From assembly GCF_000482245.1 (NCBI RefSeq), contig NZ_AWNH01000012.1, forward strand, positions 1-64,000: DNA of 64,000 nt, read 5' to 3'. The notes under the pieces are model-generated. The model saw only the letters and a program-made list of their open reading frames with translations, ran no database searches and had not been told where the DNA came from. The stretch is from Leptolyngbya sp. Heron Island J (GTDB lineage Bacteria > Cyanobacteriota > Cyanobacteriia > Phormidesmidales > Phormidesmidaceae). A program made the translations under genes and the position numbers. Positions 13,717-28,304 of the stretch are shown here, piece by piece; positions within the stretch are counted from its first letter, which is position 1, and every line of letters begins with the position of its first letter.

Positions 13717-13717
13717 T

Positions 13718-14808: not shown

Positions 14809-15491
14809 TGCCTTACTCAACAGCGGCAATCAATGCAGCCATCAATGCAGTTGGGGCGCTTCTAGATGTGGGTAGCGCAGGCAGCCCAACCGCTGAATTC
14901 ACTAACCAAGATGGCTCAATTGTTTATCTTTCGCAACCCTTAGAAAACGATGCATTTGGCGCTGCTGTTGGGGGGCAGATAACCGCCAATATCCCAGCAG
15001 GCAGCATAACTGGATTGGTAGATGGTTCAGCAGGGTATATCCGATTCAAAAACAGGGATGGGGTTGTTGTTGACGCTGAAACTGCTGCAGCTGACGCGGT
15101 GACAGCGTTAATTGCGGTTGGAGCTGGCAACCCTACAGTAGAGATAACTAATAGCGATGCTTCGATTGTTTTTGGCAGCATCAACCTAGATGCCACACCG
15201 TTTGGAGCTGCGGTTAGCGGGGTGGCTACTGCTAATTCACTCCCCAAAACATGGGCAGCCACAGCAACCGGGACCGCAACACACAAACGCTGGAAGGATG
15301 GGGATGGGTTCGTTGTTGGAACTGAAGCCCTGGCCTCTCCCGCTACGATTGAAAGTGGCAGAGCCTATACCTCAAATAGCATTACCTTTTCATCCCCTGG
15401 GATAAACTCACTGCTTACAAATGCAATCTCGGTGACAACAGGGAACTCCTACACCACCAACTCAATCACTCAGACTCAACCCGCAAGCTAA
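14808..15491 (+). CDS. Fibre-like protein with a duplicated domain
   Basis: The 227-residue protein contains two copies of a domain of about 75 residues (about residues 5-85 and 92-165). Each has an AlaAsx-rich helix, a 'GxPTxExTNxDxSIV' strand and an 'FGAAVxGxxTAN' segment. Similar domains are common in phage virion proteins of unknown role encoded near tail fibres. The C-terminal 50 residues are Ser/Thr/Asn rich with two copies of a TxNSIT motif. The start overlaps the GH10-like stop by 1 bp. Confidence 0.6.
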   Translation: MPYSTAAINAAINAVGALLDVGSAGSPTAEFTNQDGSIVYLSQPLENDAFGAAVGGQITANIPAGSITGLVDGSAGYIRFKNRDGVVVDAETAAADAVTALIAVGAGNPTVEITNSDASIVFGSINLDATPFGAAVSGVATANSLPKTWAATATGTATHKRWKDGDGFVVGTEALASPATIESGRAYTSNSITFSSPGINSLLTNAISVTTGNSYTTNSITQTQPAS

Positions 15492-16294
15492 TGGCCGCTA
15501 TTGATAGAGTCCTAGAAGCCACAAAACAACGGCGACAGGCAACCCTCCAATTGATAACTCAGCGATCTGATCTGCCAGTTGAGGAGATTTATGCAGGCGA
15601 TCGCAGGTTCCGCCAGGTTGGTGCTACAGGTGGGTACCTTGGTAGGAATCGGCCAAAGCGCATCAGTCGTAGCATTGGCGAATCCGTCGACTCACTGCTA
15701 TCTGGTGAGAGCGGGGATGTGGATGACCAAGAGCTTAGGCGAATTGTTGATGACCTATCCCAAGCCTTACGGGTGGTGGCCAATCGGCGCGGGATTCTCC
15801 TGTATCAAGGCGATGAAGCCACTAATCCAAACGACGATCCTAACGATGAAGATAACGAGGGCGAGAACAGGGCATATCAGCAGTACGATAATCAGCTAGT
15901 GGCTACTGGCAGTGAGCCCAGAGAGGGGGCGCTCTACCGACATGTCCCAGCAACAGCGACTGAACCCGAGAAATTTGTTCCAGTGGCCATGCATGAGGAC
16001 CAACATGGGCAGATTCAGTCACCAACGGTCAGCCAGACAATATGTGTGATCACTGGTGCAGAATACCGCAGTAAAATCACTAAATTCTCGCTTAAGCTAG
16101 TCGGGGGAGCGACAGTGACAACGCGAGTAGACGACGATACCAATCTAACTGTCGGCACCTCTCCGGACGAAACTACGGTGACTTTTAGTCAAGGCATTGG
16201 GACGGTGATTGATAAAGACCAAAGCCTTGAATTCACTGTCACAGCTACGAATGGTTCTGCGATCGCTTGGTCTGTTGGTTATACAAAAATCTGA
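15491..16294 (+). CDS. Fibre or baseplate-like structural protein
   Basis: A 267-residue protein with a basic helical N-terminal half (residues 1-105), an acidic Asn/Asp/Glu hinge (about 108-130) and a beta-rich C-terminal half (170-267) that looks like a small jelly-roll or Ig-type fold. An N-terminal anchor, hinge and C-terminal beta domain suit an adsorption fibre. No family match is claimed. Confidence 0.5.
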   Translation: MAAIDRVLEATKQRRQATLQLITQRSDLPVEEIYAGDRRFRQVGATGGYLGRNRPKRISRSIGESVDSLLSGESGDVDDQELRRIVDDLSQALRVVANRRGILLYQGDEATNPNDDPNDEDNEGENRAYQQYDNQLVATGSEPREGALYRHVPATATEPEKFVPVAMHEDQHGQIQSPTVSQTICVITGAEYRSKITKFSLKLVGGATVTTRVDDDTNLTVGTSPDETTVTFSQGIGTVIDKDQSLEFTVTATNGSAIAWSVGYTKI

Positions 16295-17211
16295 TGAGCC
16301 GACGCTGGTTTAATTTAATTGAATCTACAAAAGGCCGTCTTGAATTTTTGGCTTACAAAATAGTTGGCTCCACACGCGAAGAATGGTGGATAGGAGGGAT
16401 TGAAGATCCCAGGCTGTTGTATGCAGTCGACTATTCATTTGTCGACACAGGTAGCCGTTTTAGCTTTCACCAGCGTGGCAATAGCGGCAACGCAATTGTG
16501 ATTGTGACAACCGAGCCAATCAACGACGACGACGATCCAAACCTTAACTTTCAGTTTGATATGTCTGGGGCTGTAACGGCTCAGTTTGCTCCAGGTGTTC
16601 TCCCTCCTAATTTAATGGTTGTGGACCGAGGTTGGGGCATGGGCTACCAGAGGGATGTACCAACGGAAAATGAAGGCAATCGAATTCATACGGCCTACCT
16701 TAACTTTTCTGAGGTTAGGCAAGATAGCTTGAATTCTTTGGGCTACGCAATCCCGCTTGGTCTGCCTGGAAGACTATATACACTCCCGTCTTACCCAACA
16801 CCTGAGGCTGACTACAGAACCAATGAAACTGCGTTTGGTCGCGGACTACCTTCAGTAGCATACGATCACGCCTTAATCACTAACTCTGCGACAGGTACAT
16901 TCAACCTGCAGGCTTACTACAGTGCAGCAACCGGGGAGTTGCCATTAGTGGGCGACACCATCCAAACAATTAGAACCTCTGTTGCTAGAGGCGTCGCCCA
17001 TAATGCATACTACAACCACCCGTTTGTTTATGTCGTTGATGGATTTGTCTCAAACTCAAACCCAAACCCACAAAACATTACGCTGAACACATACAGACTG
17101 GAAGTAGGACAGGCAAATGTCACCGGCTCATTGGAGTCAACAGAGGTACTGCAGCCGAAAGGGTTTGATGATCCGGATTTGATTGTTTTTGGGGTACTGA
17201 TCCGGGTTTAA
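16294..17211 (+). CDS. Terminal fibre-like protein of the tail operon
   Basis: The best start is the ATG at 16294, which overlaps the previous stop as TGATG. A TTG at 16267 would add nine residues but lacks support. The 305-residue product is beta-rich and aromatic, with Asn/Pro-rich loops and no membrane segment. It closes the run of adhesin-like genes, so a receptor-binding role is a reasonable guess. Confidence 0.5.
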   Translation: MSRRWFNLIESTKGRLEFLAYKIVGSTREEWWIGGIEDPRLLYAVDYSFVDTGSRFSFHQRGNSGNAIVIVTTEPINDDDDPNLNFQFDMSGAVTAQFAPGVLPPNLMVVDRGWGMGYQRDVPTENEGNRIHTAYLNFSEVRQDSLNSLGYAIPLGLPGRLYTLPSYPTPEADYRTNETAFGRGLPSVAYDHALITNSATGTFNLQAYYSAATGELPLVGDTIQTIRTSVARGVAHNAYYNHPFVYVVDGFVSNSNPNPQNITLNTYRLEVGQANVTGSLESTEVLQPKGFDDPDLIVFGVLIRV

Positions 17212-17366
17212 GCTTGAGATCAGTCTCATCGCCAATCGCATCCTATGGGTGGCAGCACTCCCCAACGAAGCCGCCGCACTCGACCCAAACGGGCATTCGG
17301 TGATTCAGTACGCGGTGAAGTAGCCACCTCCTGGGCACCCTACAACCAACCCCACAACCACAACCC
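17212..17366 (+). other. Intergenic stretch with a short fibre-like frame remnant
   Basis: An open frame through 17230-17322 encodes a short segment ending NGHSVIQYAVK before a TAG. It has no start codon with a ribosome binding site and may be the remnant of a fibre C-terminus. Confidence 0.3.
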
Positions 17367-17561
17367 ATGACCACCCCCGAAGGACTCACCCCCACCGAAT
17401 ACAAGGAAATCGTATCCGACGCCGCTGCTGATGCCGTAATAGACTGCGGGGCGTATTGCTTCGGCGGGGGTGATGTGGGTGTTAGGCCCATCCTCAAATC
17501 GGGAATTCTTGATTTGGCAAACAATAAAACCATCGCCCCCGCTAGGACCCCTGAACGCTAG
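17367..17561 (+). CDS. Possible small protein at the end of the tail operon
   Basis: A 64-residue frame with an ATG start and an acidic, Ala-rich N-terminal half. The terminator hairpin at 17536-17567 overlaps its last codons, and the C-terminal half has an odd composition, so the 3' part may be frameshifted or not translated. Weak call. Confidence 0.3.
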   Translation: MTTPEGLTPTEYKEIVSDAAADAVIDCGAYCFGGGDVGVRPILKSGILDLANNKTIAPARTPER

Positions 17562-17574
17562 TGGGGGTTTTTGT
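17536..17574 (+). terminator. Rho-independent terminator ending the tail operon
   Basis: CCCCCGCTAG (17536-17545) pairs with CTAGTGGGGG (17558-17567), one G-U pair, followed by TTTTT. It lies at the 3' end of the rightward tail operon. Confidence 0.75.
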
Positions 17575-17602
17575 TTGATCCGAGTCGATTGCGTGCTGAC
17601 AA

Positions 17603-17628
17603 CAAAAAAGCCGCTTACTACAGCGGCT
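17603..17628 (-). terminator. Terminator for the leftward 18.3-17.7 kb gene pair
   Basis: Read leftward, GCCGC and GCGGC arms (17623-17627 and 17610-17614) enclose an 8-nt loop and are followed by six T (17604-17609). It lies 44 bp after the stop of the 110-residue gene. Confidence 0.75.
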
Positions 17629-17671
17629 CAGACTATCAGTGAGATCGTCAATCAAATATCTAAGCAACAGC

Positions 17672-18004
17672 TTATCCTTTGGTCACCATATGTGACAAGT
17701 CTTCCCCGAGGATATCCGAAACAGCTTCATCCAGCCCCACCTTAAACCGGTATCCATTGGGGCACCATATCCAGCAGGTGGGATAGCCAGGGGCGGGCAG
17801 TGCATCATAGCCACGACCTTGGATTCGGAACCCAACAGAGACTTCACCCCCGACCCGATCCGCAAATAACGCACCATTACACTTTTGGGCGACCACTTTA
17901 TTAACCAATGCCAAAACACTGCGGATGTCTTGGGGATTGCGGTTGGCAGTTGCGATCGCTTTTCGAGCGAGATTGATGCCTGCGAGGATGGAACCTAGTC
18001 TCAT
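17672..18004 (-). CDS. Unknown protein coupled to a membrane coiled-coil gene
   Basis: A 110-residue protein overlapping the upstream gene by 4 bp. The first half is helical and basic, the second half is aromatic with a Cys-Pro pair. No signal peptide. It lies between the tail operon and the membrane operon, where phages often place lysis genes, but I see no lysozyme or endolysin motif. Confidence 0.5.
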   Translation of the reverse strand: MRLGSILAGINLARKAIATANRNPQDIRSVLALVNKVVAQKCNGALFADRVGGEVSVGFRIQGRGYDALPAPGYPTCWIWCPNGYRFKVGLDEAVSDILGEDLSHMVTKG

Positions 18005-18351
18005 GCCTGCCCCCCGCTAAATACATCCCCAAACTTTTCTTTGATTGAGAGGATCTCATCACGCATGGTTTGCACTTCTGCGGGGGAGATGATGTCGTCC
18101 TCTAAGATTTTCTCAAGCCCATCGACACGGCTTTTGATGTAGCCGAGTGTACTTTCTAGCTGAGAAAAGCGCTTTTCAATCCTGGATTCAACTTGATCAG
18201 CGAGAGTGTCTAATTGCTTCAGCTTATCCTTGACAGAATCCCTGGAGAAGATGGCAGTCGCAGCGACAGAGACGAGGCCCACTGTTCCAATCAGGGCTTC
18301 TAATACGGCTGGATTTTCTAACATAGTAACGATTGAAAGCGGAGTATTCAC
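18001..18351 (-). CDS. Small membrane-anchored coiled-coil protein (holin-like or membrane adaptor)
   Basis: The 116-residue protein has one hydrophobic segment at about residues 16-34 and then a long heptad-patterned region (about 42-100). One-helix proteins with a coiled-coil cytoplasmic part sit in the lysis region of some phages, but they are also common as host membrane adaptors. The next gene overlaps it by 4 bp. Confidence 0.5.
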   Translation of the reverse strand: MNTPLSIVTMLENPAVLEALIGTVGLVSVAATAIFSRDSVKDKLKQLDTLADQVESRIEKRFSQLESTLGYIKSRVDGLEKILEDDIISPAEVQTMRDEILSIKEKFGDVFSGGQA

Positions 18352-18403
18352 CCACAGGATAGCCTAGATGCTTGCGATGTGGCTGTTCCTATTTAAAGAC
18401 AAA

Positions 18404-18430
18404 ACAAAAAGACCACCCCGAAAGGCGGCC
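18404..18430 (-). terminator. Leftward terminator
   Basis: Read leftward, GGCCGCC (18424-18430) pairs with GGTGGTC (18411-18417) using G-U pairs, followed by TTTTT (18406-18410). It is one of two terminators between the 18.6-24.7 kb operon and the 18.3 kb gene pair. Confidence 0.6.
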
Positions 18431-18487
18431 CTAACCATGATGAGGCATAGCCCCACTTGTTCCCTTGTACGCCCCCATTCTAGCCAA

Positions 18488-18522
18488 AGAAAAAGCGCCG
18501 CCGAAAGCTCCCAGGCAGCGCT
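18488..18522 (-). terminator. Leftward terminator of the membrane ATPase operon
   Basis: Read leftward, AGCGCTGCC (18514-18522) pairs with GGCGGCGCT (18494-18502) over 9 bp, followed by TTTTT. It ends the operon whose last gene stops at 18593. Confidence 0.75.
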
Positions 18523-18592
18523 TATGATTGTTCCCGTTGCGGAGTGTTGGTTGGTACTACAGCGGGGTGGGTGGGGGTTCCGGGGAGATTAT

Positions 18593-18799
18593 CTAGGTTG
18601 CCCTGTCGCTTAACTGATTAACGATCTCCGCGCAGAGATCTGTTAAGCCTGATTTCTTAATTCGACCACCACCCCATGGAAGTGCCGCTGAGTACCCAAT
18701 AGCTCTACCTGGGTCTACTTCGGACATTATCGGTTTAATGTCGAACTTGCTAAAAATATTCTGGGCCGCAGCCAACTTGATCGTTCCTTTCTTCCACAT
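18593..18799 (-). CDS. Small protein, last gene of the membrane operon
   Basis: The ATG at 18799 follows a GGAG site at about 10 nt and is preferred over a TTG at 18814. The product is about 68 residues, basic at the N-terminus with a Gly-rich centre. No family recognised. Confidence 0.45.
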   Translation of the reverse strand: MWKKGTIKLAAAQNIFSKFDIKPIMSEVDPGRAIGYSAALPWGGGRIKKSGLTDLCAEIVNQLSDRAT

Positions 18800-18819
18800 A
18801 ATCCTATTCTCCAATTACA

Positions 18820-19014
18820 CTACACAACCCATTTGCTATTTAAATAAACTTGATCGTTCGCATGAACTGTTTTTGACTTTGGCCACGCTTCATTGATTGC
18901 GTCGTAAGTTATTCGGTAATGAGCACATGCTTGATTCATCGCGTCGTAGTCGTCCTCTGCATAACAGAAGAATGAATCGCCGTTTAGTAGCCCAACAAAA
19001 TAAATTTCCACCAT
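18820..19014 (-). CDS. Small hypothetical protein
   Basis: A 64-residue protein starting directly after the stop of the GIY-YIG gene. Begins with a short hydrophobic strand and ends in a basic, aromatic tail. Contiguity with neighbours supports expression; function unknown. Confidence 0.5.
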   Translation of the reverse strand: MVEIYFVGLLNGDSFFCYAEDDYDAMNQACAHYRITYDAINEAWPKSKTVHANDQVYLNSKWVV

Positions 19015-19524
19015 TCAACCTCCAATCACTTCAAAAACTAACACCCCAACCCCCACCAACCCGACCCACACCAGCAATGTCCCCAGGGCATCTCGCAGCC
19101 GCACTCGTCTCCGCTGCTTTCGTTTCGCCCACACCAGCCACCCCATGGCACCCAGTTTGCCAAGCCAGGGGCGATCGCAATTCCAAAACCATGGATAACT
19201 CGTATCGTTCCATGGGGGCCGAAATTCTTTGATGTATCGATTTTCTTGTCGTACATAGTCCAGGGTCTTTATATAGGCGATGTGTGATGCCCTGAGAGAC
19301 GCCAGCCAATACCGCCCATGCCTGCGATCGCCTGTGGCATTCCAGCGCTGGTGGATATTTTTAGATAGGCCAATGTATAGAGTTTGGCGGCCACGCATAA
19401 CAGCGTATAGCCCTGGGATTTCAGGTAACTGATCATGGGCGGAAAAGCGTATCCGTTGCCATCGTCGGGGATGGGCTAGGGTGGAGAGGGGGACGGATGG
19501 CCAGAGGGGGATTGGGAGTGTCAT
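19015..19524 (-). CDS. GIY-YIG domain protein with C-terminal membrane helix
   Basis: The 169-residue protein has a compact GIY-YIG domain: GLY at 38-40, LYIGLS at 49-54, an Arg near 60, a possible catalytic Glu94 in the QEN segment and Asn106. A basic stretch (134-144) is followed by a hydrophobic helix at 147-166. A GIY-YIG nuclease tethered to the membrane is unusual and suggests action on DNA crossing or docked at the envelope. It is coupled to the upstream gene by an ATGA overlap. Confidence 0.65.
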   Translation of the reverse strand: MTLPIPLWPSVPLSTLAHPRRWQRIRFSAHDQLPEIPGLYAVMRGRQTLYIGLSKNIHQRWNATGDRRHGRYWLASLRASHIAYIKTLDYVRQENRYIKEFRPPWNDTSYPWFWNCDRPWLGKLGAMGWLVWAKRKQRRRVRLRDALGTLLVWVGLVGVGVLVFEVIGG

Positions 19525-19805
19525 TCGAAATCAGGCCCCGACGCATCGCAATCCCATGGCCAGACAATATCACCACTTTCATCCCGCGCTGCCTCGCACC
19601 GCAGCTCATTACCTCTAGAATCCTGCGTTGTGGTCGTCGATGACTCAGGGCTATCTGTCGTCGTGGTCACAGTCCCATTGTCGTTATTGGTCGTCTCAAT
19701 CCGATGGGGCCGACCGGTATTACCCGCACCCTTGGCTAGGACAGGGGGTGTCAGGGCAGGGATGATTAGGGTTAAAGACAAGAATAGAAAGATTGGGTTT
19801 TTCAT
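19521..19805 (-). CDS. Secreted Thr-rich protein
   Basis: The ATG at 19805 overlaps the stop of the 45-residue upstream gene and is preferred to a TTG at 19829. The product of about 94 residues begins with a clear signal peptide with cleavage after an Ala-x-Ala-type site near residue 24. A Thr/Ser/Asn-rich low-complexity region and a C-terminal acidic segment with two cysteines follow. Probably periplasmic or released. Confidence 0.6.
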   Translation of the reverse strand: MKNPIFLFLSLTLIIPALTPPVLAKGAGNTGRPHRIETTNNDNGTVTTTTDSPESSTTTTQDSRGNELRCEAARDESGDIVWPWDCDASGPDFE

Positions 19806-19939
19806 TGGTTTGTTTTCCACCAGTAACAACGGTATTCAATTTCACTAGCTGCCGACGCCTCAACGCAAAAGTTGGTATTGGCGTACCAGCCTATTAATGC
19901 GCCGAGGATGAGAGGGATGAAGAAGGGGCGGGGGTTCAT
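19802..19939 (-). CDS. 45-residue small membrane or exported protein
   Basis: This short gene begins at an ATG at 19939 that overlaps the stop of the 200-residue gene (ATGA) and its own stop overlaps the ATG of the next gene. The protein has a basic start, a hydrophobic helix at about residues 6-20 and a polar tail with two cysteines and a Trp pair. Overlaps on both sides are strong evidence that it is translated. Size and shape would suit a small envelope subunit. Confidence 0.65.
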   Translation of the reverse strand: MNPRPFFIPLILGALIGWYANTNFCVEASAASEIEYRCYWWKTNQ

Positions 19940-20538
19940 TTCATCCCCCACTTGGCTAAGCGCTTGAGTACGGTGGCCCCAGCATTAACAATAGGATTTT
20001 CGTATTGAATGTCTTCAAGACTGACAGGCTCAAGCTCCCAGCTTTTTTTCGTGGTATCCCATCCCTTTACCCACATCAAGCGCCGGTTGAATGACACTAC
20101 ATCCCCAGCTTGTAATTGATGCGATCTCAATAAAATGGTCTGATCTCCTCTTTGAACGCTGATAAAACCTTCTGGAAACTTTCCTCGAAATTCCGTTGGC
20201 TGTGCGCTTCTCGTTTGATGAGGCGATATGTTGCTCTCTATGTATTCAAACAATGGATAAAACATCTCATCGTCGACATCTAGCGCAATTGCTAGTGCAT
20301 CAACGCAAGTTTTAACCTCGCTATCCGAAAGTTTGATAGCCGAAACCTGACCCAAACTCTCAATGCCATCAAGAAGCTGTTGATATTCGCTGCTCAGGTT
20401 AGGAACCCCAGATTGATGTGCGAGCTCTTCTGCTACCTGCAAGGCATCTATCAGCAAATCTATGTTTTTCCCTTTCAATATCATGAACCTGTGCTCCCAG
20501 TGAATTGAGGTGTGTAGGGTTAGACATTTGTTATTCAA
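19936..20538 (-). CDS. Unknown protein downstream of the membrane ATPase
   Basis: Up to 200 residues. A TTG at 20538 overlaps the ATPase gene, while an ATG at 20484 gives 182 residues and a cleaner N-terminus. The first part is helical, the last 90 residues look like a beta domain. No transmembrane segment. It lies between the ATPase and the exported small proteins, so a cytoplasmic accessory role is likely but unproven. Confidence 0.55.
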   Translation of the reverse strand: MNNKCLTLHTSIHWEHRFMILKGKNIDLLIDALQVAEELAHQSGVPNLSSEYQQLLDGIESLGQVSAIKLSDSEVKTCVDALAIALDVDDEMFYPLFEYIESNISPHQTRSAQPTEFRGKFPEGFISVQRGDQTILLRSHQLQAGDVVSFNRRLMWVKGWDTTKKSWELEPVSLEDIQYENPIVNAGATVLKRLAKWGMK

Positions 20539-22303
20539 TGCCGTAAGCTTCAGCGGCAGGCAGGTACATGATGCGCAACCCAGGCGAACCCTTAATCACC
20601 TTGAACTGATCTGGGTACATGCTCTGGAGAGACCTGCAAATATCTTCCATAAGGGGATAATAACCCTCTCTTTCAGACGGTTCTGTTTCAGATTTTTTTT
20701 CACCGCTAAAGCACTGAGCTGCCATCTTGATGGTGATACTTGATGTACCGTTTCCGATAGCGCACTGCTTACGAATTTCGTTAGCGACCCTTTCTAAGGC
20801 ATTGACCCACTCTTCGATTTCGTCTTCGTCGCCTCCGTCATCGAGAAAATCAGAAGGAAGCTCGTAATTATTTGGCTTATCTAATCGAGCGTCTAACTCA
20901 GGAAATAGCTCTAAAGCGCTGTGAACATAACAAGGGACCATATCTCCTTCGCGGCCTTCCACTTTGACAAACTTCAGCCAATCAGGCAGCTTAATTACCT
21001 CTCCTGTGCTCTCGTAAGCATTACTTTGAGCTTCCAAGACGTGGTATGTCCCTGAAGGATATTTGCCAGTTTTTTTATAGTCTGCACCCACGCTTCTGGC
21101 CCATAAAGCGCCTAACATCAGAAGTTCAGACTTGGCTTGATCTGAATATCCAGCAGGAATACCCATGGATGTGGCTGTTTTGCCATGCATCACTAGCCGA
21201 ACGCAGCCCCCAGTCTTAGCAAACCCTGTCATCAAGTTGTTCCAGAGATCCGTACTAGACTGTTTGCCCATGGACCTCAATGTCTTAGTGCATTCGTCCA
21301 GAAACCAAATCCGATCCCTGGCTGAGCCCTTCTTTAAAGCACTAATTTCTTTGATGACCGCCTGATACCCTTGTTTGCCAGTGTCGATATCGCCGCCATA
21401 GATTCGCGTAAATTTAACCGGATAGATATCATCATCGCAGGTCACATAGGTAATCTGTTTATCATTGAGCGCTGACTCAATGATGGCCAAAATCATCAAG
21501 ATAGTAGATTTTCCTGACCCTTGATTTCCGGTTGCACCAATCATGCGATCGCCCACAAATTGTTCTATGTCGCAGCCAGCGGATTTTAGCTCACGCAGCA
21601 AAATGGTGGCCCGCTCCTGTTTGGTTTTTGAAAGAAACTCAGGGGATACCCCGTGGTCATCAAAAATCGACCGTGGAGCATTGTCGTCTATACTCCAATC
21701 GTTATCGGATGATTTAGTACTGTACTGAGGGGTCCAAGACGATATTTCGCCATCCGGTTCTTCCTCATCGTCATCAATCGTCAAAACTTCGTAATCTGTA
21801 TCAATAGCAGGTTCAATAACGTCTTTCTCTCCTTCAGCAGATTCTTCACTATCGCCTTCAAGCATGTTTTTTAAGACTGAAGACGTTTTTTCTTTAACTA
21901 AGGGATCAGCCGTTTCCGGAACTCCTTTACAAAGAGCTTCTAAGTCCTCCCACTCATCATCTGTGAGCCAGTCCCCAATCATGTCATCACGGATGTCTTC
22001 CTTAAACTCAAAGAACCGCTTGATAGCAAAGTAGCCGTTTCCACCCGTCCCGACACCAAACAAAATTACCGCTAACAAGGCTCCGCCTCCGCTAGCAAGC
22101 GCAACCGCACTGAGACCCAAAGATGTTGCAGCTCCCCAAGTCAGGAACGAAAACATTCGCGATGTCTCTCGCTCCTCAGCAATATCTGCATAAATATCGG
22201 TTGGAGAAACCCTCCCCTCCCTCAAATTCTGAGATAATTCTGCGATCGCTTGAGATTTTTCCTCAGGCAGCAATGCGTCAATGGACGGATGTGACAGCAT
22301 CAA
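20531..22303 (-). CDS. Membrane-anchored P-loop ATPase (DNA transfer, packaging or secretion type)
   Basis: The 590-residue protein has two hydrophobic segments at about 52-70 and 72-95, an acidic linker (150-210), and an ATPase core. Walker A is GATGNQGSGKST at 256-267 with Lys265; Walker B is RIWFLDE at 331-337 with Asp336 and Glu337. The order of two membrane helices followed by a P-loop domain recalls type IV coupling proteins, HerA/FtsK-type pumps and filamentous-phage morphogenesis ATPases. Here the core is short and I cannot choose between them. It is the hub of the leftward operon and overlaps both neighbours. Confidence 0.7.
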   Translation of the reverse strand: MMLSHPSIDALLPEEKSQAIAELSQNLREGRVSPTDIYADIAEERETSRMFSFLTWGAATSLGLSAVALASGGGALLAVILFGVGTGGNGYFAIKRFFEFKEDIRDDMIGDWLTDDEWEDLEALCKGVPETADPLVKEKTSSVLKNMLEGDSEESAEGEKDVIEPAIDTDYEVLTIDDDEEEPDGEISSWTPQYSTKSSDNDWSIDDNAPRSIFDDHGVSPEFLSKTKQERATILLRELKSAGCDIEQFVGDRMIGATGNQGSGKSTILMILAIIESALNDKQITYVTCDDDIYPVKFTRIYGGDIDTGKQGYQAVIKEISALKKGSARDRIWFLDECTKTLRSMGKQSSTDLWNNLMTGFAKTGGCVRLVMHGKTATSMGIPAGYSDQAKSELLMLGALWARSVGADYKKTGKYPSGTYHVLEAQSNAYESTGEVIKLPDWLKFVKVEGREGDMVPCYVHSALELFPELDARLDKPNNYELPSDFLDDGGDEDEIEEWVNALERVANEIRKQCAIGNGTSSITIKMAAQCFSGEKKSETEPSEREGYYPLMEDICRSLQSMYPDQFKVIKGSPGLRIMYLPAAEAYGIE

Positions 22304-23136
22304 TTGACATCTCCTTTAAATAATCGAACTCCTTTACGAACCAAGCAGAAACACCAAACAGCAAGCCATAGGAAGAACAACGTTATCGAGCCACGCATGA
22401 CGTTAGTCCAGTCGATTCCGGTAGCCCATACCGACCAACCGCCTTTAAGCGGTGGAGCGGCATACAGTACAACTCCCCCATCAATGCAGAAGCAGGCAAA
22501 CTGAACGACCCTCAAGCCAAAAATAAAAGATTCATAGTATCGGTTGTAATCCTCAATCATGGATGTCACCAATGATGAATCCCCTTGCTGAGGGTTGATT
22601 TTTTTAAATTTACGAAAGCTGCTAATGATGGACTTTCTTAATCGTGGTGAATGCTTGATCACCGTTGGAGCAATTTCACCTGACTGCAGCAACAAGAAAA
22701 TGATGATGAATCCAAAACCGTAGGTTGTGATAACCAGTGCGTGAAGCACACTGGCGGCAATATCTAAAAAGAACGCCAGGAGATCACGCAGGAAACTCCC
22801 ATACTTCCAGTCCTCAACAATACCAGCCCCCATGCGTTTCCAATCGATCACCTGCGACTCGCCAACTTTTCGCCCAAGCTCCGCATAGATATGGGCTCCT
22901 TGAAACAGGAGCCACCCAATCAACACGATTAGCAAAAAGCACAAAATAATACATACTGTGCTGCCTGGCGTGAAAATAGCTCCTAGCTTTGGAGCCTTGA
23001 ATTTAGACGTTTTACGAGAACGAGGGGTCTTAGTATCAGACTTCTTTTTTTTGGAGTATTTCTCCCTCAAGTTACTGAGTTTTTGGGTTGTTGTGTCGGA
23101 ACTTTGAGTTGCTCCATCGCCAGCAGCAGCTACCAC
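22300..23136 (-). CDS. Polytopic membrane protein, partner of the ATPase
   Basis: A GTG start at 23136 has an ideal AAGGAG six bases upstream, and the stop codon of the previous gene lies directly before that site. The longer frame from a TTG at 23208 is less likely. The product of about 278 residues has a basic Lys-rich N-terminal region (to about residue 60) and four or so membrane helices. The last codons overlap the ATPase start by 4 bp. A channel or platform for the ATPase is plausible. Confidence 0.65.
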   Translation of the reverse strand: MVAAAGDGATQSSDTTTQKLSNLREKYSKKKKSDTKTPRSRKTSKFKAPKLGAIFTPGSTVCIILCFLLIVLIGWLLFQGAHIYAELGRKVGESQVIDWKRMGAGIVEDWKYGSFLRDLLAFFLDIAASVLHALVITTYGFGFIIIFLLLQSGEIAPTVIKHSPRLRKSIISSFRKFKKINPQQGDSSLVTSMIEDYNRYYESFIFGLRVVQFACFCIDGGVVLYAAPPLKGGWSVWATGIDWTNVMRGSITLFFLWLAVWCFCLVRKGVRLFKGDVN

Positions 23137-23146
23137 GGCTTTCTCC

Positions 23147-23728
23147 TTACTGATCAATTTGAATCTCTGAACGATGCGCCCTTGGGTTCCAGTCCGCTGC
23201 ACTGGCAAACCTGTTGTTTACGATGTCCATGTCCGTCGCCCTGGCCACGGTGCTCATATCCACATAGCCGTCCGGACCAATTTCAGCCGTTGTGCCGCGA
23301 TCGTCACAGACTTCTGTCTTCGGCGGAAACGGCTTGCCCGTGTTTTTATCGATGGGTCGAAAATCCGTCGTGATGACGGCGACCTTGCTGGCATAGCGTT
23401 CGCCCGGCTCTTTCGGGAGAAACGTAATGATGCACCCAGAGTAAAAACGAATATGGGCTTGACGAGCTTCCAGCTCACGAGCTTCTAACTCGGCTTCCAG
23501 CGCTTCAGCTTTCGCTTTTGATTCTGCAGCCAGCACTCTGGATTGAAATTCTTGCCGATCTTGCAGCTGGCTAACCTCAGATTTCATCTCCCGGAAGTTT
23601 CGGCTCGACGGAGTGAATTGCATGGCGATGGAAACAGCAATCGCAGCTCCACCAACGAACAATACCGGTCCACGGTCTGCTGTCCGTTGCGGGCGTTTTC
23701 TATTGACGGCTTTTTGACGACGTGACAT
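23147..23728 (-). CDS. Single-pass membrane protein with periplasmic coiled coil
   Basis: The 193-residue protein has a very basic N-terminus, one membrane helix at about 22-37, a Glu/Ala/Gln coiled coil (45-92) and a C-terminal domain with two cysteines (about 99 and 142). The orientation predicted by the positive-inside rule puts the coiled coil and C-terminus outside the cytoplasm. Such proteins often bridge membranes in secretion or transfer systems. The gene follows a long repeat-rich leader region. Confidence 0.6.
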   Translation of the reverse strand: MSRRQKAVNRKRPQRTADRGPVLFVGGAAIAVSIAMQFTPSSRNFREMKSEVSQLQDRQEFQSRVLAAESKAKAEALEAELEARELEARQAHIRFYSGCIITFLPKEPGERYASKVAVITTDFRPIDKNTGKPFPPKTEVCDDRGTTAEIGPDGYVDMSTVARATDMDIVNNRFASAADWNPRAHRSEIQIDQ

Positions 23729-23938
23729 GACTTTAAAATCGACCTAGTTCGCTAAACAATTTATAAGTTGACAATGAGCAGGACAGGACTGAATTTAACC
23801 CCCTACAGGGAACCTTGCCTGCTACGATCTCCTGTGCCTGCTAAAACCTTCCTGTTCCTTTAGATGAAGGGTTTCGGCTGTTCCTGCAAATTATCTACAG
23901 GAGGTCAACCAGGATCTTGACACTCCTGTAGATCCTGC
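23729..23938. promoter_or_regulatory. Intergenic region with many CAGGA/TCCTG motifs
   Basis: About ten copies of TCCTG or its complement CAGGA occur in roughly 200 bp, in both orientations and often at 8-15 bp spacing. The region lies within the leftward operon, between the 169-residue and 193-residue genes. It could be a clustered protein-binding site, an origin-like region or a transfer origin. Confidence 0.5.
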
Positions 23939-24448
23939 TCACTTTGCAGGGCCTAAAACAGCCTGATCTAGCCGCGCTTTTTGGGCGGGGCTGAGGAGAT
24001 TTGCAAACGTTTTCGGGTCTGGGAATTTGGGCGCTGATAAATTTGTCAACAAATCCCCTCCTTCCAAACGCTCAAACTCAATGGACACCGTGGCGTCAGC
24101 TTGAACCGATTCTCCTAATTGGTAAGTTGAACGCCGTTTGGCCAGCATGCTTTCTAGCGTTGAGCCATTTAGCATACATTCCTCTCTATACGCGATCGCA
24201 TCAGCGGCGCTCTCCAGTTTCCGCTCAAGCCCTGTGATGACATCAACTTTTTTCTGCAGTTGGTGCCCAAGAGCAGCCGCTGCAGTATCAGAGAAGGCCA
24301 GGGATGCCTCTTTAGCTTGTTCTGCAGACTCGCTAGGGGCAGTACTGGGTGCTTGTACCTGATGTGATGCTTGAGATTGAGTGCGATCGGTCGAAAAGCC
24401 TTGACCTGCAGTGGCTTTAGCTTTTTTCAAGTCTTCTGTTGTTCTCAC
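23939..24448 (-). CDS. Soluble helical protein of unknown function
   Basis: A 169-residue protein with a Ser/Thr/Gln/Ala-rich disordered N-terminus (to about residue 48), a helical Ala-rich centre and a C-terminal domain. It begins 2 bp after the small HTH gene. No signal peptide. Possibly a DNA-binding or partition accessory protein; not recognised. Confidence 0.5.
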   Translation of the reverse strand: MRTTEDLKKAKATAGQGFSTDRTQSQASHQVQAPSTAPSESAEQAKEASLAFSDTAAAALGHQLQKKVDVITGLERKLESAADAIAYREECMLNGSTLESMLAKRRSTYQLGESVQADATVSIEFERLEGGDLLTNLSAPKFPDPKTFANLLSPAQKARLDQAVLGPAK

Positions 24449-24450
24449 AA

Positions 24451-24705
24451 TTAAATCTCCTTAAGTAAATCGAAGTGAACGTCAATGAAGTGGTTGATGT
24501 TTCTGCCTGAGCGCAGCCAACCAGCCAAACTAACCAGTGCATCCAGCTGTTTGCCGGTATAAGTCCCAAACTCGCAAGGATGAATGTCTAGCTTCTGACG
24601 CCAACGACGAATTGTTCTAGAAGCAACAGATCTTCCAGTTTCTGACTTGATGCAGAGCTTAACTTCTGCTGCCGTAAAACCATCATTTAAGACCTGAACA
24701 TTCAT
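24451..24705 (-). CDS. Small helix-turn-helix DNA-binding protein
   Basis: The 84-residue protein reads as a compact HTH: FTAAEVKLCIKSE then RSVASRTIRRWRQKL as a turn and recognition helix, with a helical tail. It is the first gene of the leftward operon and faces a tandem CCTAGGTCATG repeat 66 bp upstream, so it is probably the operon regulator. Confidence 0.6.
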   Translation of the reverse strand: MNVQVLNDGFTAAEVKLCIKSETGRSVASRTIRRWRQKLDIHPCEFGTYTGKQLDALVSLAGWLRSGRNINHFIDVHFDLLKEI

Positions 24706-24771
24706 TGCCCCTTAAGTCTCTCCTTTAAAAGGTTTCAGCGATTTGGTGACCTACCTGTGTCCGGTCGACGA

Positions 24772-24793
24772 CCTAGGTCATGCCTAGGTCATG
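24772..24793. promoter_or_regulatory. Tandem operator-like repeats CCTAGGTCATG
   Basis: Two identical 11-bp units lie head to tail at 24772-24782 and 24783-24793, and each contains the palindrome CCTAGG. They stand in the divergent region between the leftward HTH gene and the rightward gene near 24.9 kb. Confidence 0.55.
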
Positions 24794-24897
24794 CCGCCAC
24801 TAAAGACAAGGATAATTCAGAAAATAAGAAATAGCAATGCTATCTCTATGCTTTAGCTATACAATTGCCTAAACCTCGTTCTTCAATCAAAATTGAG

Positions 24898-25239
24898 ATG
24901 CCCAAAAATATAGAAAAAGCGATGCCTGGGAAAAACCAACGGAATATAAGCTTGTCCGATGCAGCGTCTGAAGAATTCCAGTTGGTAGCAGATTGGTTGG
25001 GGGTACCCCAAGCGTCGCTAATGAGGCAAAAGCTAGAAGAAGCACACCAGTCACCAGCTTTTGCGTCGGTGGTGAGACGAGCCAAGGCATCTCAACGCGC
25101 GTCAGCTGAAATCAGTCAGCTGACAAGGGAACTGAGAAGTGAAATCGCCAGCAACGAAAATGCGATCGCGCTGCTTGACAAACTGGAATCAGAATTAGAA
25201 ACGCTGCTAGGGAAAGTACCCGGATCTGATAGTCATTAG
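24898..25239 (+). CDS. Ribbon-helix-helix-like DNA-binding protein
   Basis: From the ATG at 24898 the product is 113 residues; a TTG at 24865 and an ATG at 24922 are alternatives. The segment RNISLSDAASEEFQLVADW followed by a short second helix looks like a strand-helix-helix DNA-binding fold of CopG type. The C-terminal half is a Leu/Glu coiled coil (about residues 75-108) for oligomerisation. It is divergent from the leftward membrane operon and may share its operator. Confidence 0.5.
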   Translation: MPKNIEKAMPGKNQRNISLSDAASEEFQLVADWLGVPQASLMRQKLEEAHQSPAFASVVRRAKASQRASAEISQLTRELRSEIASNENAIALLDKLESELETLLGKVPGSDSH

Positions 25240-25253
25240 CCACCCTCCCCACC

Positions 25254-25283
25254 AAAAAACCTGGGAGCCAGTCAACCCCCAGG
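25254..25283 (-). terminator. Leftward terminator beyond the RHH-like gene
   Basis: CCTGGG (25260-25265) pairs with CCCAGG (25278-25283); read leftward the stem is followed by six T. It would stop transcripts entering from the right and faces the end of the rightward gene. Confidence 0.55.
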
Positions 25284-25820
25284 CAGTCAGTGTGTGTTGC
25301 GGCAGCCGGAGCGCGGCGATCAGCTCCAGCCGTGTAATCCAGGTTACCCAAAGTAACCCGTTATATGTCCTATAGTATGACAGTCATTTGCCACTTATAG
25401 TGGTTGCGCCTGGCCTTATGCTGGGCGTTTTCTGTGGGTGGGCAGCCTCCGAGATAAAACCCCCAGAAGTATTGGCGGACTCCCAGGGGGTTATGTCGTG
25501 CTATGTGCAGCTAGAGATGCTTGCTGTGCTCTAGCCGCACATAGTTTGCCCAGGGAGGGTTGGGGTTAACGGAGGAAAGCTTAAAGGAATGGGAAGGCAC
25601 TGCCTCCACCCACGGACATCGGCTGATCGCTGAAAGCCCTATGTTTTGGTTGACATCCGTGGGGCCTTATTTGACAAGGGTTTCAGTGCTTGAGGCCGTA
25701 AATCCTGCAGGCTGATAGGATAGGACTATCGACATCCGTGGTTTAGCTGTCTGACAGTTTCACTCGTTACAACCAGGGAGCTTCAGCATTCACGGAACCA
25801 ACGTTAGCCTTTGGGCATTG
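25284..25820. other. Gene-free stretch with hairpins and a leader-like repeat
   Basis: No convincing gene is present. A perfect AACCCCC/GGGGGTT stem spans 25458-25492. A CCCACGGACATC motif lies at 25609-25620, and the leader-like block at 25643-25753 is homologous to sequence beside CRISPR array 2. Confidence 0.5.
25643..25753 (+). repeat. Inverted copy of the CRISPR array 2 leader-like sequence
   Basis: This block is similar over about 110 bp to the reverse complement of 35766-35877. Shared segments include GACATCCGTGGTTTAGC, GGGGCCTTA, GGTTTCAG and GGCTGATAG. The motif GACATCCGTGG occurs at 25652-25662 and 25731-25741. No CRISPR repeat follows it. Confidence 0.65.
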
Positions 25821-26327
25821 TTATTCCGTTGTGAATTGCGGCATGAACGGAATATCCGTACTGCCAACATCTAGATTTAGCTGAGATAATAACGTTGTCA
25901 CTTGTCCCCGGTGATGGGTTTGGTGGTTAAACATGTGCATAATCAGAAACCTTCGAGATACTGAACGCACTTTCCCATCGACTTTGCTCTTGTAAGTCTG
26001 CACCTGGTCAAGCCAGGAATCTTCAAGCGTTGATACCCAATCGACAAGCCGAATATCAAGAGAAGAACGAGCAGATTTAAGCTCAGAAAATGTGGAGAAA
26101 AGCTCTGCCCCAAGTTCCGGTACCTGAGGTGGATTTTCGGTAAATCTTGACATAAAGGCCAGGTCGCCATAGGTGATGTGGTTGAGTGTCAAATATATAG
26201 AGCCAAAGAATGCTCCCCTATCTAACCTAAGTTCATCCTCTGGTAGCTCTGAACACACGTCGTAAATCTTGCTATTCATCCATTGGTTATACTCAGCCAG
26301 CAACAGAAACAGGGGTTTGTCTAGCAT
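25821..26327 (-). CDS. DinB-family protein
   Basis: The 168-residue protein has the DinB/YfiT four-helix pattern with the usual metal-binding histidines: His50 in the TLNHI segment and His135 and His139 in FNHQTHHRGQ. The C-terminal 'GQVTTLL' and 'DIPFM' segments are also typical. DinB-family proteins are metal-dependent enzymes, often thiol transferases, and are common in cyanobacteria. The gene stands alone. Confidence 0.85.
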   Translation of the reverse strand: MLDKPLFLLLAEYNQWMNSKIYDVCSELPEDELRLDRGAFFGSIYLTLNHITYGDLAFMSRFTENPPQVPELGAELFSTFSELKSARSSLDIRLVDWVSTLEDSWLDQVQTYKSKVDGKVRSVSRRFLIMHMFNHQTHHRGQVTTLLSQLNLDVGSTDIPFMPQFTTE

Positions 26328-26605
26328 ACTTACCTTTTGATCAGTAAACTTCGAAAACTATACCCCAACCAACCTCTGACGCTCACCCCTACCACAGCCC
26401 TATGGAGTACTCGGGAGCAAGTTACATCAACTGCAACACTTGATATACGCATTAAATAGCCCCCAATACACAGGTACCGAGGGCGGCTTTGTTATAGGAA
26501 GTTACTCATAATATGAAGGAGCAGTATGTCTGCTCTCAGTGTCTAGAGTACCCAGTTCTGTAGGGAGAGATCGCACCTTTCAAGTGTGCACAATCCCTCA
26601 AGTTC
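26328..26605. other. Intergenic region without a recognised gene
   Basis: The sequence holds promoter-like AT-rich patches upstream of the DinB gene but no open frame with a ribosome binding site. Confidence 0.4.
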
Positions 26606-26992
26606 TTATTGGGTTTGAGGGGTTGAGCTCACGCCTTCTATAAGATGGGAACGAACACACGTCAATAGACTGTTAAACCGGAAAGGCTTGGCAATGAATG
26701 CTTGAGCCCCTAAGGAGAGAACGTCTTCTCGAATTTCGTCATTGTCAAGAGCCGTCACAACAATCACAGGAATCTGCACTGCTTGCGCACGGATTTCCTT
26801 TAAGACTTCCCTGCCATCCATTCCAGATAGCCCTAAATCTAGCAATATAAGGTCGAATTTTCCTGATAAAGCTAAGGGAAGAGCTTGATTCCCATTTGAG
26901 GCTATCTGGGTTTGATAGCCTGCTTTTTTCAATCCTTTTGACACAAAGTCTGCGATCCGAGGTTCATCTTCAACAATTAAAATAGTCGCCAC
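26606..26992 (-). CDS. Single-domain response regulator receiver
   Basis: The 128-residue protein is a stand-alone CheY-like receiver. The acidic pair Glu8-Asp9, the phosphoacceptor Asp52 in LLDLGLSGMDG, Thr80 and Lys102 in AKPF are all present. The sequence resembles OmpR-family receivers but stops after the receiver, with no DNA-binding domain. It probably relays a phosphate or acts by protein contact. No histidine kinase is nearby. Confidence 0.9.
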   Translation of the reverse strand: MATILIVEDEPRIADFVSKGLKKAGYQTQIASNGNQALPLALSGKFDLILLDLGLSGMDGREVLKEIRAQAVQIPVIVVTALDNDEIREDVLSLGAQAFIAKPFRFNSLLTCVRSHLIEGVSSTPQTQ

Positions 26993-27117
26993 AGTGCAAA
27001 CTGTAATTCAGGTCGTCAACCCTGAAGCTTAAAGGGTTTTTTGGGAAGAAGATGTAAGCATTGACTCAGAATTTGCAGAAAAGTGTCAATTATTCGTTTA
27101 ATAGGACATCTTATCGG

Positions 27118-27273
27118 ATGAATGCAACCACTCTCGGCACTGCACGCCCGTTCACTCCCCAACCAACCGCTGCCCCTGCCAATCCCCTCAAGAGTAACTT
27201 CATTCAGGGGTTTGAGCTTAACCGAGTAGGAGCGACAGGATTTGCTGGCATTTCTGAATATGTTGACCGATGA
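27118..27273 (+). CDS. Possible small protein
   Basis: A Pro/Ala/Asn-rich product of 51 residues from the ATG at 27118 (70 from a TTG at 27061). It is divergent from the receiver gene. Codon use is plausible but there is no strong ribosome binding site and no family. Confidence 0.3.
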   Translation: MNATTLGTARPFTPQPTAAPANPLKSNFIQGFELNRVGATGFAGISEYVDR

Positions 27274-27341
27274 AACTTTTATTCAGAATCCGGCCTTCGG
27301 CGCTCCCCACGACGATTAACTATTAAGCAGGATAAGAAATC

Positions 27342-27536
27342 TTACTCCACCGTATGACCTTTTGCAGTAATCGCTTCCCGCACAGCATTTTCAGAGGCGC
27401 TGGTTTCGGCAGATACCTCCTTCGTCTCAACATTAATGTTGACCTTTGCACCGGAGTCCAGCTCGGTGATGGCTTTGGTAATAGTGTCAGCGCAACCATC
27501 ACAAACGATGGAAGGAACCTTGAGTTGCATAGCCAT
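27342..27536 (-). CDS. Heavy-metal-associated (HMA) domain protein, Atx1-like metallochaperone
   Basis: From the ATG at 27536 the product is 64 residues with the ferredoxin-like HMA pattern. It begins MAMQLKVPSIVCDGC, so the metal-binding CxxC is at residues 12 and 15. The end has the usual 'AITAKGHTVE' strand. Small HMA proteins carry Cu(I) or Zn(II) to P-type ATPases. The longest frame (start 27569) adds an unlikely basic leader. Confidence 0.85.
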   Translation of the reverse strand: MAMQLKVPSIVCDGCADTITKAITELDSGAKVNINVETKEVSAETSASENAVREAITAKGHTVE

Positions 27537-27569
27537 AGGGATAGGGTGTCCTCTTCGAAACAGTGGCAC

Positions 27570-27983
27570 CTTTAATGTAGATCGTTTTTAACACAGACCA
27601 GAGTAGATATCTGGGTAGAGATTGTAGCAATCCCATTGAGTTGTGCGAGTCACCTTGACGGGCTTTTCCTCACGGCAAGGGCCAACGCTCTCCGACCAAG
27701 AACAGCGCCAACCCTCGTTGCCTCTAGGTTTCCTGAAAGCCTATGGACATTCCCGAACACCTCAGTTAAGCTAGGCGAAACCACCTCATTTTCTGAGGGG
27801 GTCTGCCGAACCTCGAAAACTGCATTATTTCGTTGACCCCCTCAGATACATTACTGGGCAAGGGCTTCAGACGTTTTCCACAGGGCTTTATTGGGAATAG
27901 CTTCTATTTATCTGGGCTTTTCCAGACCCCCTCAGAAATCGGGTTCTAGAGGACTTGTATAGTAAGGGTTCCAGAAGGTGGGG
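27570..27983 (+). promoter_or_regulatory. Probable leader of CRISPR array 1
   Basis: A gene-poor stretch directly upstream of the first repeat. The inverted motif CTGAGGGGGTCTG / CAGACCCCCTCAG occurs near 27793 and 27927, plus a GACCCCCTCAG near 27834. The last repeat of the array is the degenerate one, so this side is the leader end. Confidence 0.5.
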
Positions 27984-28304
27984 GTTCAGAACCCATTACC
28001 CCGCAAGGGGACGGAAACTTCTCGCCATCGGTGTGGTCGCACACCTCTGTGTTTTGTTCAGAACCCATTACCCCGAGAGGGGACGGAAACAAATAACCTC
28101 AGTTTAAGTAAAACTGCTCAGGAGGCTGTTCAGAATCTACTACCCCGAGAGGGGACGGAAACTAGTGCATGTTTTCCTTAACCTCTGTGTAGGGGGCAAG
28201 GGTTTAGATCCCATTACCCCGAAAGGGGACGGAAACGCGATCAGATTAATCTCTCCCATCATGAACTTTAGGGGTTCAGACCCCACTGCCCCGAAAGGGG
28301 AAAC
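27984..28304 (+). CRISPR. CRISPR array 1: five repeats, four spacers
   Basis: Repeats of 35 bp start at 27984, 28056, 28128, 28202 and 28274. They contain the stem CCCCGAGAGGGG and end in GACGGAAAC. Spacers are 37, 37, 39 and 37 bp. The loop and 5' half vary between repeats (GCAA, GAGA, GAAA loops) and the last copy lacks ACGG, so the array is decaying. Repeat shape and the GAAAC end resemble cyanobacterial type III-associated repeats. No cas gene was seen in the window, so processing would have to be in trans. Confidence 0.9.

Follow-up and report, generated by a model that had tools for sequence, protein, structure and literature searches.

A membrane-anchored ATPase and two membrane partners on cyanobacterial plasmids and small integrated elements: a candidate DNA-translocation module

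A leftward operon of Leptolyngbya sp. Heron Island J (contig NZ_AWNH01000012.1; positions are those of the window, i.e., the whole stretch of 64,000 nucleotides that was analyzed) is built around a three-gene core that recurs in cyanobacteria and is composed of a one-helix protein, a multi-helix protein, and a membrane-anchored ATPase. We tentatively read this operon as a DNA-translocation module of mobile elements and would give this reading slightly less than an even chance. Among the functions considered by the first-pass annotation of this DNA (conjugation, filamentous phage morphogenesis, DNA uptake or secretion), DNA transfer is the best supported, and its description of an uncharacterized envelope operon around a membrane-anchored ATPase is borne out by the open reading frames at this place and by the conserved core. 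A literature search found no paper on this module.

All proteins named in that annotation are minus-strand entries of the ORF list, neighboring genes overlap by at most 62 bp or are separated by at most 210 bp, and purine-rich sites resembling ribosome-binding sites precede several of them. These reading frames are more than chance ORFs because relatives of the ATPase and of several other genes occur elsewhere, and no gene of the operon reached the cut-off of any named Pfam family. The unit probably extends beyond the operon to two further reading frames and a noncoding stretch, and its features are as follows:

25242..25560, no strand: hairpin-rich noncoding stretch heading the element, conserved (detected in 3 of the 5 genomes searched; z -3.2; alignment)
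24865..25239, plus strand: divergent 124-aa gene, RHH-like by eye (Z 1.4 and 2.7 with sister-element counterparts)
24451..24705, minus strand: HTH regulator of 84 aa that opens the operon, with a weak match to a MerR-like fold (Pfam MerR_1, E 0.15 only; related to the first gene of the Adonisia element, Z 7.6)
23939..24448, minus strand: soluble helix-rich protein of 169 aa (Adonisia counterpart marginal, Z 2.3)
23147..23728, minus strand: core gene 1, a single membrane helix at the N-terminus (hydropathy, 20-38), a coiled coil, and a C-terminal domain that contains two Cys (position conserved; Z 3.1 with Adonisia)
22300..23208, minus strand: core gene 2, polytopic membrane protein with five hydrophobic segments (hydropathy; position conserved, similarity to counterparts not significant)
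20531..22303, minus strand: core gene 3, ATPase with predicted membrane anchor, P-loop K265, D336-E337, and H373 (invariant residues, model, and fold search)
19936..20538, minus strand: 200-aa protein, C-terminal domain common to an Adonisia 82-aa protein (Z 20.6; E 2.5e-9)
19802..19951, minus strand: possible small membrane protein of 49 aa (45 aa from an internal ATG)
19521..19829, minus strand: small secreted Thr-rich protein with an N-terminal hydrophobic segment (related to a G015 89-aa protein, Z 15.9)
19015..19524, minus strand: GIY-YIG nuclease-like domain (Pfam PF01541, E 0.0012, below cut-off) and C-terminal membrane helix (150-168)
18820..19014, minus strand: 64-aa protein common to a G015 element (Z 28.5)
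18593..18814, minus strand: 73-aa protein common to a G015 element (Z 23.0)
18409..18432, minus strand: terminator-like hairpin with T run just past 18593 (from a noisy terminator scan, 21 found versus 9.5 expected)
18001..18351, minus strand: coiled-coil protein of 116 aa with one helix, likely to belong to the element (Z 5.3 with the Adonisia 82-aa protein)
17672..18004, minus strand: protein of 110 aa, likely to belong to the element (Z 6.1 with an Adonisia 99-aa protein)

Hydropathy agrees with the first-pass annotation on the polytopic partner, the single-pass coiled-coil protein, and the secreted Thr-rich protein. Both reading frames of its two short exported or membrane proteins are present, but the 49/45-residue one fell below the hydropathy cut-off, and the idea that the 45-residue protein is a small structural subunit found no support. 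Its membrane-tethered GIY-YIG protein does have the tether, but the family match stays below threshold (19.6 bits against a cut-off of 22.6); GLY, YIG, R, E, and N are all present by eye, and the sequence makes this protein a likely divergent member of the GIY-YIG nuclease family. A PDB sequence search with it returned P-loop-only or chance matches. A promoter scan gave a signal no higher than in shuffles, and Rfam recognized no RNA family in 17000-29000.

The core was found at 54 loci in the genome collection, on 53 plasmid records, and on 1 viral contig, with no matches among 50,697 phage records. Of the 47 loci whose upstream sequence is long enough to judge, 39 keep its gene order (8 of 55 loci with less than 1.3 kb upstream were left out, as was L065, a second copy of the contig of L066; the window, L004, L005, and L006 are not counted). 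Because the core genes stand together in these 39 loci, the first-pass annotation's own ground for giving up the unit, genes found separately in unrelated contexts, falls away for the core, but it holds for the small downstream genes, some of which adjoin a different motor in another genome. At the sequence level, homology among the polytopic proteins of the window, L011, L012, and the plasmids is not significant, and the plasmid profile of the one-helix protein matches L011 (76%, E 2e-5) but neither the window nor L012. A shared RHH-like gene across the elements was also considered and dropped, as its similarity is not significant and the counterparts correspond by position only.

The window ATPase carries its P-loop lysine at residue 265, counted from TTG, and G259, K265, and T267 as well as D336 and E337 are invariant in 15 ATPase sequences, representing a Walker A and an acidic Walker B motif in a RecA-like core. 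For the profiles, 14 of 50 ATPases of at least 500 aa were kept (those of at least 88% identity being dropped) and joined to the window protein in A3, while A8 holds 32 of the 50 (94% limit) plus the window protein. Structure modeling and a fold search predict a RecA/FtsK-like motor with TcpA (Z 12.9) and FtsK among the best matches, though RecA, UvsX, and Rho are on a par with them; HerA is absent among the VIA-align matches listed, which excludes nothing. A search of viral structures gave AAA-type and helicase proteins and no clear lead, and PDB sequence searches with A3 and A5 and with L086 alone gave P-loop-only or chance matches. The ATPase had been described as a two-helix protein, and one hydrophobic segment (66-84) was indeed seen by hydropathy, but the second helix is absent there and appears only in the model of the homologue L014, which has two N-terminal helices. 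The same model shows a winged-helix-like C-terminus (three helices and two strands at 591-654); in the window protein, the C-terminus was modeled with low confidence, and Pfam gave no match for a winged helix.

The other outcome that would have spoken against novelty, an ATPase that groups with an already known and fully partnered system, was not found. The window protein does not match PF02534 at E<=1, the genome's five PF02534 places lying elsewhere (C32, C81, C41, C113), and the window locus is not among the 43 own-genome matches of PF01580 at E<=1; PF05707 (Zot) matches on C85 in this genome but not, at E<=1, at the window locus. PF03135 (VirB4) has no match in this genome, with a model that detects its family in only 1 of 14 control genomes. 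Motor domains of other types also occur joined to the anchor half of the ATPase, with 15 of the 53 plasmid records matching the N-terminal region only (3 of these 15 were read). These exchanged motor types lean towards coupling proteins and FtsK, and one type C relative carries a fused peptidoglycan hydrolase domain. Type A motors have no direct match to coupling-protein, FtsK, or Zot profiles: a profile comparison over 45 columns gave 92% for A-B, 95% for B-C, 64% for C-FtsK, and 85% for C-coupling protein, and at most 10% for A directly. Judged by these profiles, the motor seems tied to FtsK and coupling proteins only through the other motors on that anchor.

On plasmids, the core adjoins replication and ParM-like genes, and no type IV secretion genes were found beside it. 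A relaxase is encoded on 44 of the 53 ATPase plasmids versus 78 of 191 reference plasmids matching CyRepA1 (counts that include sister-strain copies and possibly shared records); the relaxase genes lie outside the core's operon. A gene of 310 to 394 aa upstream of the core is actin-like in two cases (L085 and L006), for which reason a capsid or Rep assignment was dropped; the 394-aa protein of L004 had no match. A 1087-aa ORF of L011 was initially taken for a relaxase because it matched a TraI-like protein of L006, and was rejected as a CyRepA1-type replication protein (DUF3854, 8.5e-45). The window operon instead lies within an approximately 8-kb element that adjoins phage tail genes and has relatives in two genomes of the same genus; a search for its ends fixed none. 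Such elements were found with the phage-type protein phrog_2428, and one is on a contig classed as viral. Neither the window nor the Adonisia element has a ParM-type gene in the operon. On the equivalent side of the motor, G015 elements encode an SH3-domain protein that also has a helix and weakly matches a nuclease fold, while an HNH nuclease suspected by eye at the place of the GIY-YIG gene in the Adonisia element was not confirmed on search.

If the operon does translocate DNA, N-terminal helices would anchor the ATPase, probably in ring form, in the inner membrane, and its RecA/FtsK-like motor would pump DNA that the C-terminal winged helix of the homologue's model may select. The one-helix and multi-helix proteins could make a channel or septum-docking part, and the tethered GIY-YIG nuclease may cut or trim DNA in the window element, a role that the relaxase could take on plasmids. 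The element would thereby spread from cell to cell, perhaps within filaments, and need no full type IV secretion system. The conserved core, its setting on plasmids and small integrated elements, the relaxase association, the exchange of motors on a constant anchor, and the hydrolase fusion all favor this reading, as do the predicted fold and the winged-helix-like end and paired helices of the homologue; TraB, TdtA, and TcpA show that such motors transfer DNA (PMC5365140, PMC12857230). Against it stand the lack of direct profile matches for type A motors, the tied structural matches, the 9 of 53 plasmids without a relaxase, the position of relaxase genes outside the operon, and the tight ParM-like link, which fits maintenance too.

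Such a maintenance role, in which a septum-bound pump or anchor clears or segregates element DNA at division in the fashion of FtsK, within one cell line and sending nothing to other cells, would account for the FtsK-like fold, for cores that follow ParM-type actin-like genes on one strand, and for those on plasmids lacking a relaxase. We consider it unlikely given that the window and Adonisia operons do without a ParM-type gene, that the plasmids already have ParM and ParA systems, and that relaxases are associated with the core. A filamentous phage was considered first because the order of small proteins, one-helix protein, polytopic protein, and ATPase recalls inoviruses, whose pI/Zot is likewise a membrane-bound P-loop ATPase among small membrane proteins. 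In pI/Zot, the ATPase domain is N-terminal and the membrane helix follows. In the window protein, the order is reversed, segment 66-84 preceding the P-loop at 265, and the Zot profile is silent even at E 1; no coat or Rep gene was recognized, and together with the missing phage-record matches and the plasmid setting this leaves filamentous phage morphogenesis unsupported.

Less likely again than maintenance is virus-like egress more broadly, with the element or plasmid as a small chronic virus or vesicle-packaged element whose motor and membrane proteins load or extrude the particle. The wealth of small membrane proteins in the approximately 8-kb elements, their hairpin-rich noncoding stretch, phrog_2428, the viral-classed contig, and the neighboring tail genes fit this idea, but the window operon offers no recognizable coat, capsid, or Rep gene, phage records and the Zot profile are silent, and most copies sit on replicating plasmids with partition genes. 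Lowest of all we rank exclusion or defense, where a membrane motor and tethered nuclease would detect and destroy incoming DNA to guard the resident element: the GIY-YIG-like protein with its membrane helix and the G015 protein with helix and SH3 domain are in keeping with it, but most plasmids have no nuclease directly beside the core, whose plasmid-backbone place would be atypical of defense cargo.

DNA translocation by this module would most resemble the mode of working of Streptomyces TraB/Spd, Thermus TdtA, and Clostridium TcpA. TraB and Spd carry out FtsK-like transfer of double-stranded DNA in the mycelium; they combine a membrane-bound FtsK-like motor with small membrane proteins in one unit, and their bacteria form filaments and carry them on plasmids or integrated elements (PMC12857230, PMC5365140). 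The module is similar in setting and predicted fold, and the winged helix of TraB has a putative counterpart in the model of homologue L014, whereas here the window locus lacks a PF01580 match, the plasmids often have a relaxase, and the envelope has two membranes. TdtA of ICEth1 (transjugation) resembles the module, whose motor is a putative FtsK/HerA-type one, in belonging to a small integrated element and in having a nuclease gene alongside, but its operon is described as encoding NurA and a type IIG enzyme (PMC5365140), neither of which was recognized in the window operon (for NurA, by Pfam naming only). With TcpA of pCW3 and VirD4-type coupling proteins, the module shares the predicted motor fold, the N-terminal membrane anchor, and the plasmid setting; the differences are that it gave no PF02534 match and that no secretion-channel ATPase was recognized among the operon genes.

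It is still an open question how plasmids travel among cyanobacteria. Of 424 cyanobacterial plasmids, 24 were predicted to be conjugative (given as 6%) by a 2021 survey, which names pCC7120alpha alone as having been reported to be transmitted in vivo and cites an earlier suggestion of an unknown mechanism (PMC8600333). A 2011 survey described FtsK-based systems as moving double-stranded DNA within actinobacterial mycelia and knew no experimental evidence of relaxases working with them (PMC3158045). Since 53 plasmid records have the conserved motor module and 44 of these also encode a relaxase, both points become testable in existing laboratory strains such as Tolypothrix sp. PCC 7601, which has several plasmids with the module. 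It is a bolder and rather doubtful proposal that filament-forming cyanobacteria own a plasmid-borne DNA pump, independent of that of Streptomyces, that serves spread along and between filaments by means of a conserved anchor, two membrane partners, and exchanged FtsK/HerA-type motors. The module may be an unrecognized machine that moves DNA between cells; under the bolder proposal, it would be a transfer system hitherto missing for small cyanobacterial plasmids that bear a relaxase but no secretion system.

The genes that the first-pass annotation had assigned to one leftward operon are all present where it placed them, arranged head to tail in close succession along the minus strand (24705 to 18593), with a terminator-like stem after them at 18432-18409. 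The window is the start (1-64000) of a contig 208,660 bases long, in a genome of 8.06 Mb. None of the 10 operon proteins scanned reaches the curated cut-off of a Pfam family, and PHROGs gave weak endonuclease and transposase matches with otherwise no named role for these proteins. Not counting the window and three plasmids, 55 loci were compared; upstream of the membrane-anchored ATPase they usually encode first a one-helix protein (130-190 aa, the helix N-terminal) and then a multi-helix protein of 230-300 aa. By profile count, both partners lie upstream of the ATPase in 39 of the 47 loci whose upstream sequence extends for 1.3 kb or more (8 of the 55 had less). The eight misses comprise L011 and L012 (the latter an Adonisia element), in which the partners exist by position and are too divergent for the profile, and L015, L029, L048, L052, L063 and L064, several of which are interrupted or short. 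Between the window and the Adonisia element, the HTH genes are related (Z 7.6) and the one-helix proteins weakly so (Z 3.1; 4 of 500 shuffles); similarity of the multi-helix proteins is not significant (Z 1.8).

Downstream of the motor, the window shares proteins both with G015, a genome of the same genus (Thr-rich, Z 15.9; 73-aa, Z 23.0; 64-aa, Z 28.5), and with Adonisia (200-aa C-terminus, Z 20.6; 116-aa, Z 5.3; 110-aa, Z 6.1). The G015 proteins before the motor have no detectable relation to their window counterparts, and the G015 motors are of types B or C, as opposed to type A, the motor of the window ATPase. Because downstream genes are shared while the G015 pre-motor proteins and motors differ, the operon of the window represents the core module in one member of an element family, roughly 7-14 kb in size, whose parts can be exchanged; the element's ends in the window were sought and could not be fixed. 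Downstream of their motors, three sister elements each carry a different small membrane-helix protein:

Window, 19015-19524, minus strand: GIY-YIG-like protein with a membrane helix
L155 (G015), 9453-10160: protein with a membrane helix and an SH3 domain, weak nuclease-fold match
L012 (Adonisia), 11759-12187: small membrane-helix protein

An HNH-like identity of the last protein, suggested by eye, was not confirmed on checking. Both G015 elements have, at their far end, a phage-family protein of phrog_2428 (L155 4537-4950, 9e-34; L154 1929-2396), which resembles an anti-CBASS protein (sponge), and one of these elements sits in a contig classed as viral. Outside the operon, a hairpin-rich non-coding stretch of 200-300 bases (25242-25560) folds better than all 100 shuffles (z -3.2) and recurs at the same operon end in Adonisia and both G015 elements. 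It is present in 3 of 5 genomes searched, in one, two and three copies, and congeneric genomes keep it at 76-82% identity though most neighbouring proteins have diverged. This stretch is possibly an origin, a transfer site or a regulatory region.

Exchange of motors on a constant anchor is not confined to G015, whose two elements have motors of type B and of another kind again, type C. In genome G412, the match of three chromosomal copies to the ATPase profile is limited to the N-terminal part (ending at profile positions 225 and 259 in two; the third, shorter, spans 121-277), and the copies carry other motor domains; all three have the one-helix partner and two the multi-helix partner. Likewise, 15 of 53 plasmid records match only N-terminally, and all three of these that were examined carry type B. 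A D-P-K-[GN]-D stretch in type B and a glutamine ending a core strand in types B and C are features of FtsK/HerA/VirD4 motors; the histidine at this glutamine's position in type A (H373) is invariant. In a contig of the viral collection (L158, 12163-13767), a type C motor is joined to a Peptidase_M23 domain (1.4e-8; a peptidoglycan hydrolase) with a membrane segment between them, and a second type C motor lies a few kb away.

Since PF02534, PF01580 and PF05707 do not match the window ATPase, we do not class it with coupling proteins, TraB/FtsK or Zot. In its AlphaFold2 model the motor core is confident (71-96 in blocks from residue 211 to 400) and the anchor poor (whole-model mean 60.5), with RecA, FtsK, FlaI and EccC as best solved-structure matches; upon realignment, TcpA (Z 12.9; 190 aligned, 3.6 A) ties with UvsX and RecA. 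The model of the L014 homologue (mean 68.7) shows two long N-terminal helices (53-92 and 99-121) followed by the motor; at the C-terminus, three helices and two strands form a unit that we read as a putative winged helix. At E<=0.001 this model matches six chains, five of them FtsK motors and the sixth titled "ATPase", and FtsK upon realignment (Z 12.1; 196 aligned, 3.6 A) ties with UvsX, Rad51-type and Rho chains. In profile comparison, the A-B link scored 92% and the B-C link 95%; type C was in turn linked to the FtsK of the own genome (64%, 119 columns) and to a coupling protein of this genome (85%, 45 columns). Compared directly with five coupling proteins, FtsK and the Zot-like protein, type A reached at most 10%, and five DnaB, ParA and Rep controls all stayed below 3%; all these figures are rough, the alignments being shallow. 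Through these intermediates, type A likely belongs to the FtsK/HerA superfamily by an indirect relation. The own genome has five coupling-protein places, all outside the operon, and no match to the VirB4 profile PF03135, a weak model. A 1101-aa open frame elsewhere in this genome (C85, 13855-14052) scores over the Zot cut-off.

The ATPase is found in 3 of 63 genomes of the host's order, own genome included, and, with a 15-sequence profile, in 11 of 386 genomes sampled from the phylum. Among 84,980 species genomes, 263 pattern matches yielded 54 confirmed loci, all with cyanobacterial record titles, and the genera concerned are filament-forming. Of 72,556 plasmid records, 37 match the window ATPase and 53 its Nostoc version; none of 50,697 phage records matches, and the viral collection has one contig with it. 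The closest relative (L011, 51%) shares its 19.7-kb contig with a replication gene of CyRepA1 type. In several Nostocales plasmids, the core comes after an actin-like gene of ParM type and some small genes on one strand, with a primase-helicase Rep on the opposite strand and a ParA-like gene nearby. Mobility typing scored 35 of the 53 plasmid records as mobilizable, 9 as conjugative and 9 as neither. Relaxases occur in 78 of the 191 records that match a CyRepA1 protein and in 19 of the 37 that match the Rep of plasmid L004; their enrichment on ATPase plasmids relative to the 191 (odds ratio 7.1, p 5e-8) is an association and not a test, because near-identical sister-strain plasmids are included, records may be common to both sets, and for some of the 191 the match runs through a relaxase.

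Elsewhere in the window, a plus-strand phage tail module (3440-17211) with a 1828-aa tape-measure protein (PF10145, 2e-23) and a glycosyl-hydrolase-10-like protein stops just before the element. Five degenerate CRISPR-like repeats of about 37 nt, spaced 72-74, lie near the operon (27976-28309), and similar ones near the Adonisia operon. A DnaB-like helicase contains an intein with a homing endonuclease (58888-61263). A ParA-like partition protein (53358-54698; phrog_164, 6e-35) and an IS605 OrfB / Cas12f1-like transposase (36125-37327) give the contig a plasmid- or phage-plasmid-like flavour.

Our preferred interpretation of the module is a device for DNA translocation, based on a motor bound to the membrane together with two membrane proteins, its residence on plasmids and small integrated elements, its greater frequency on relaxase-bearing plasmids, the swapping of motors on a constant anchor and, in one type C relative, the joining of the motor to a peptidoglycan hydrolase domain. 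Among the rival readings, a role in segregation seems unlikely, virus-like egress somewhat more so, and exclusion is the least probable. DNA transfer, for which we see a little less than an even chance, is our tentative preference, and the device would act like TraB/Spd of Streptomyces, TdtA of Thermus or TcpA of pCW3.
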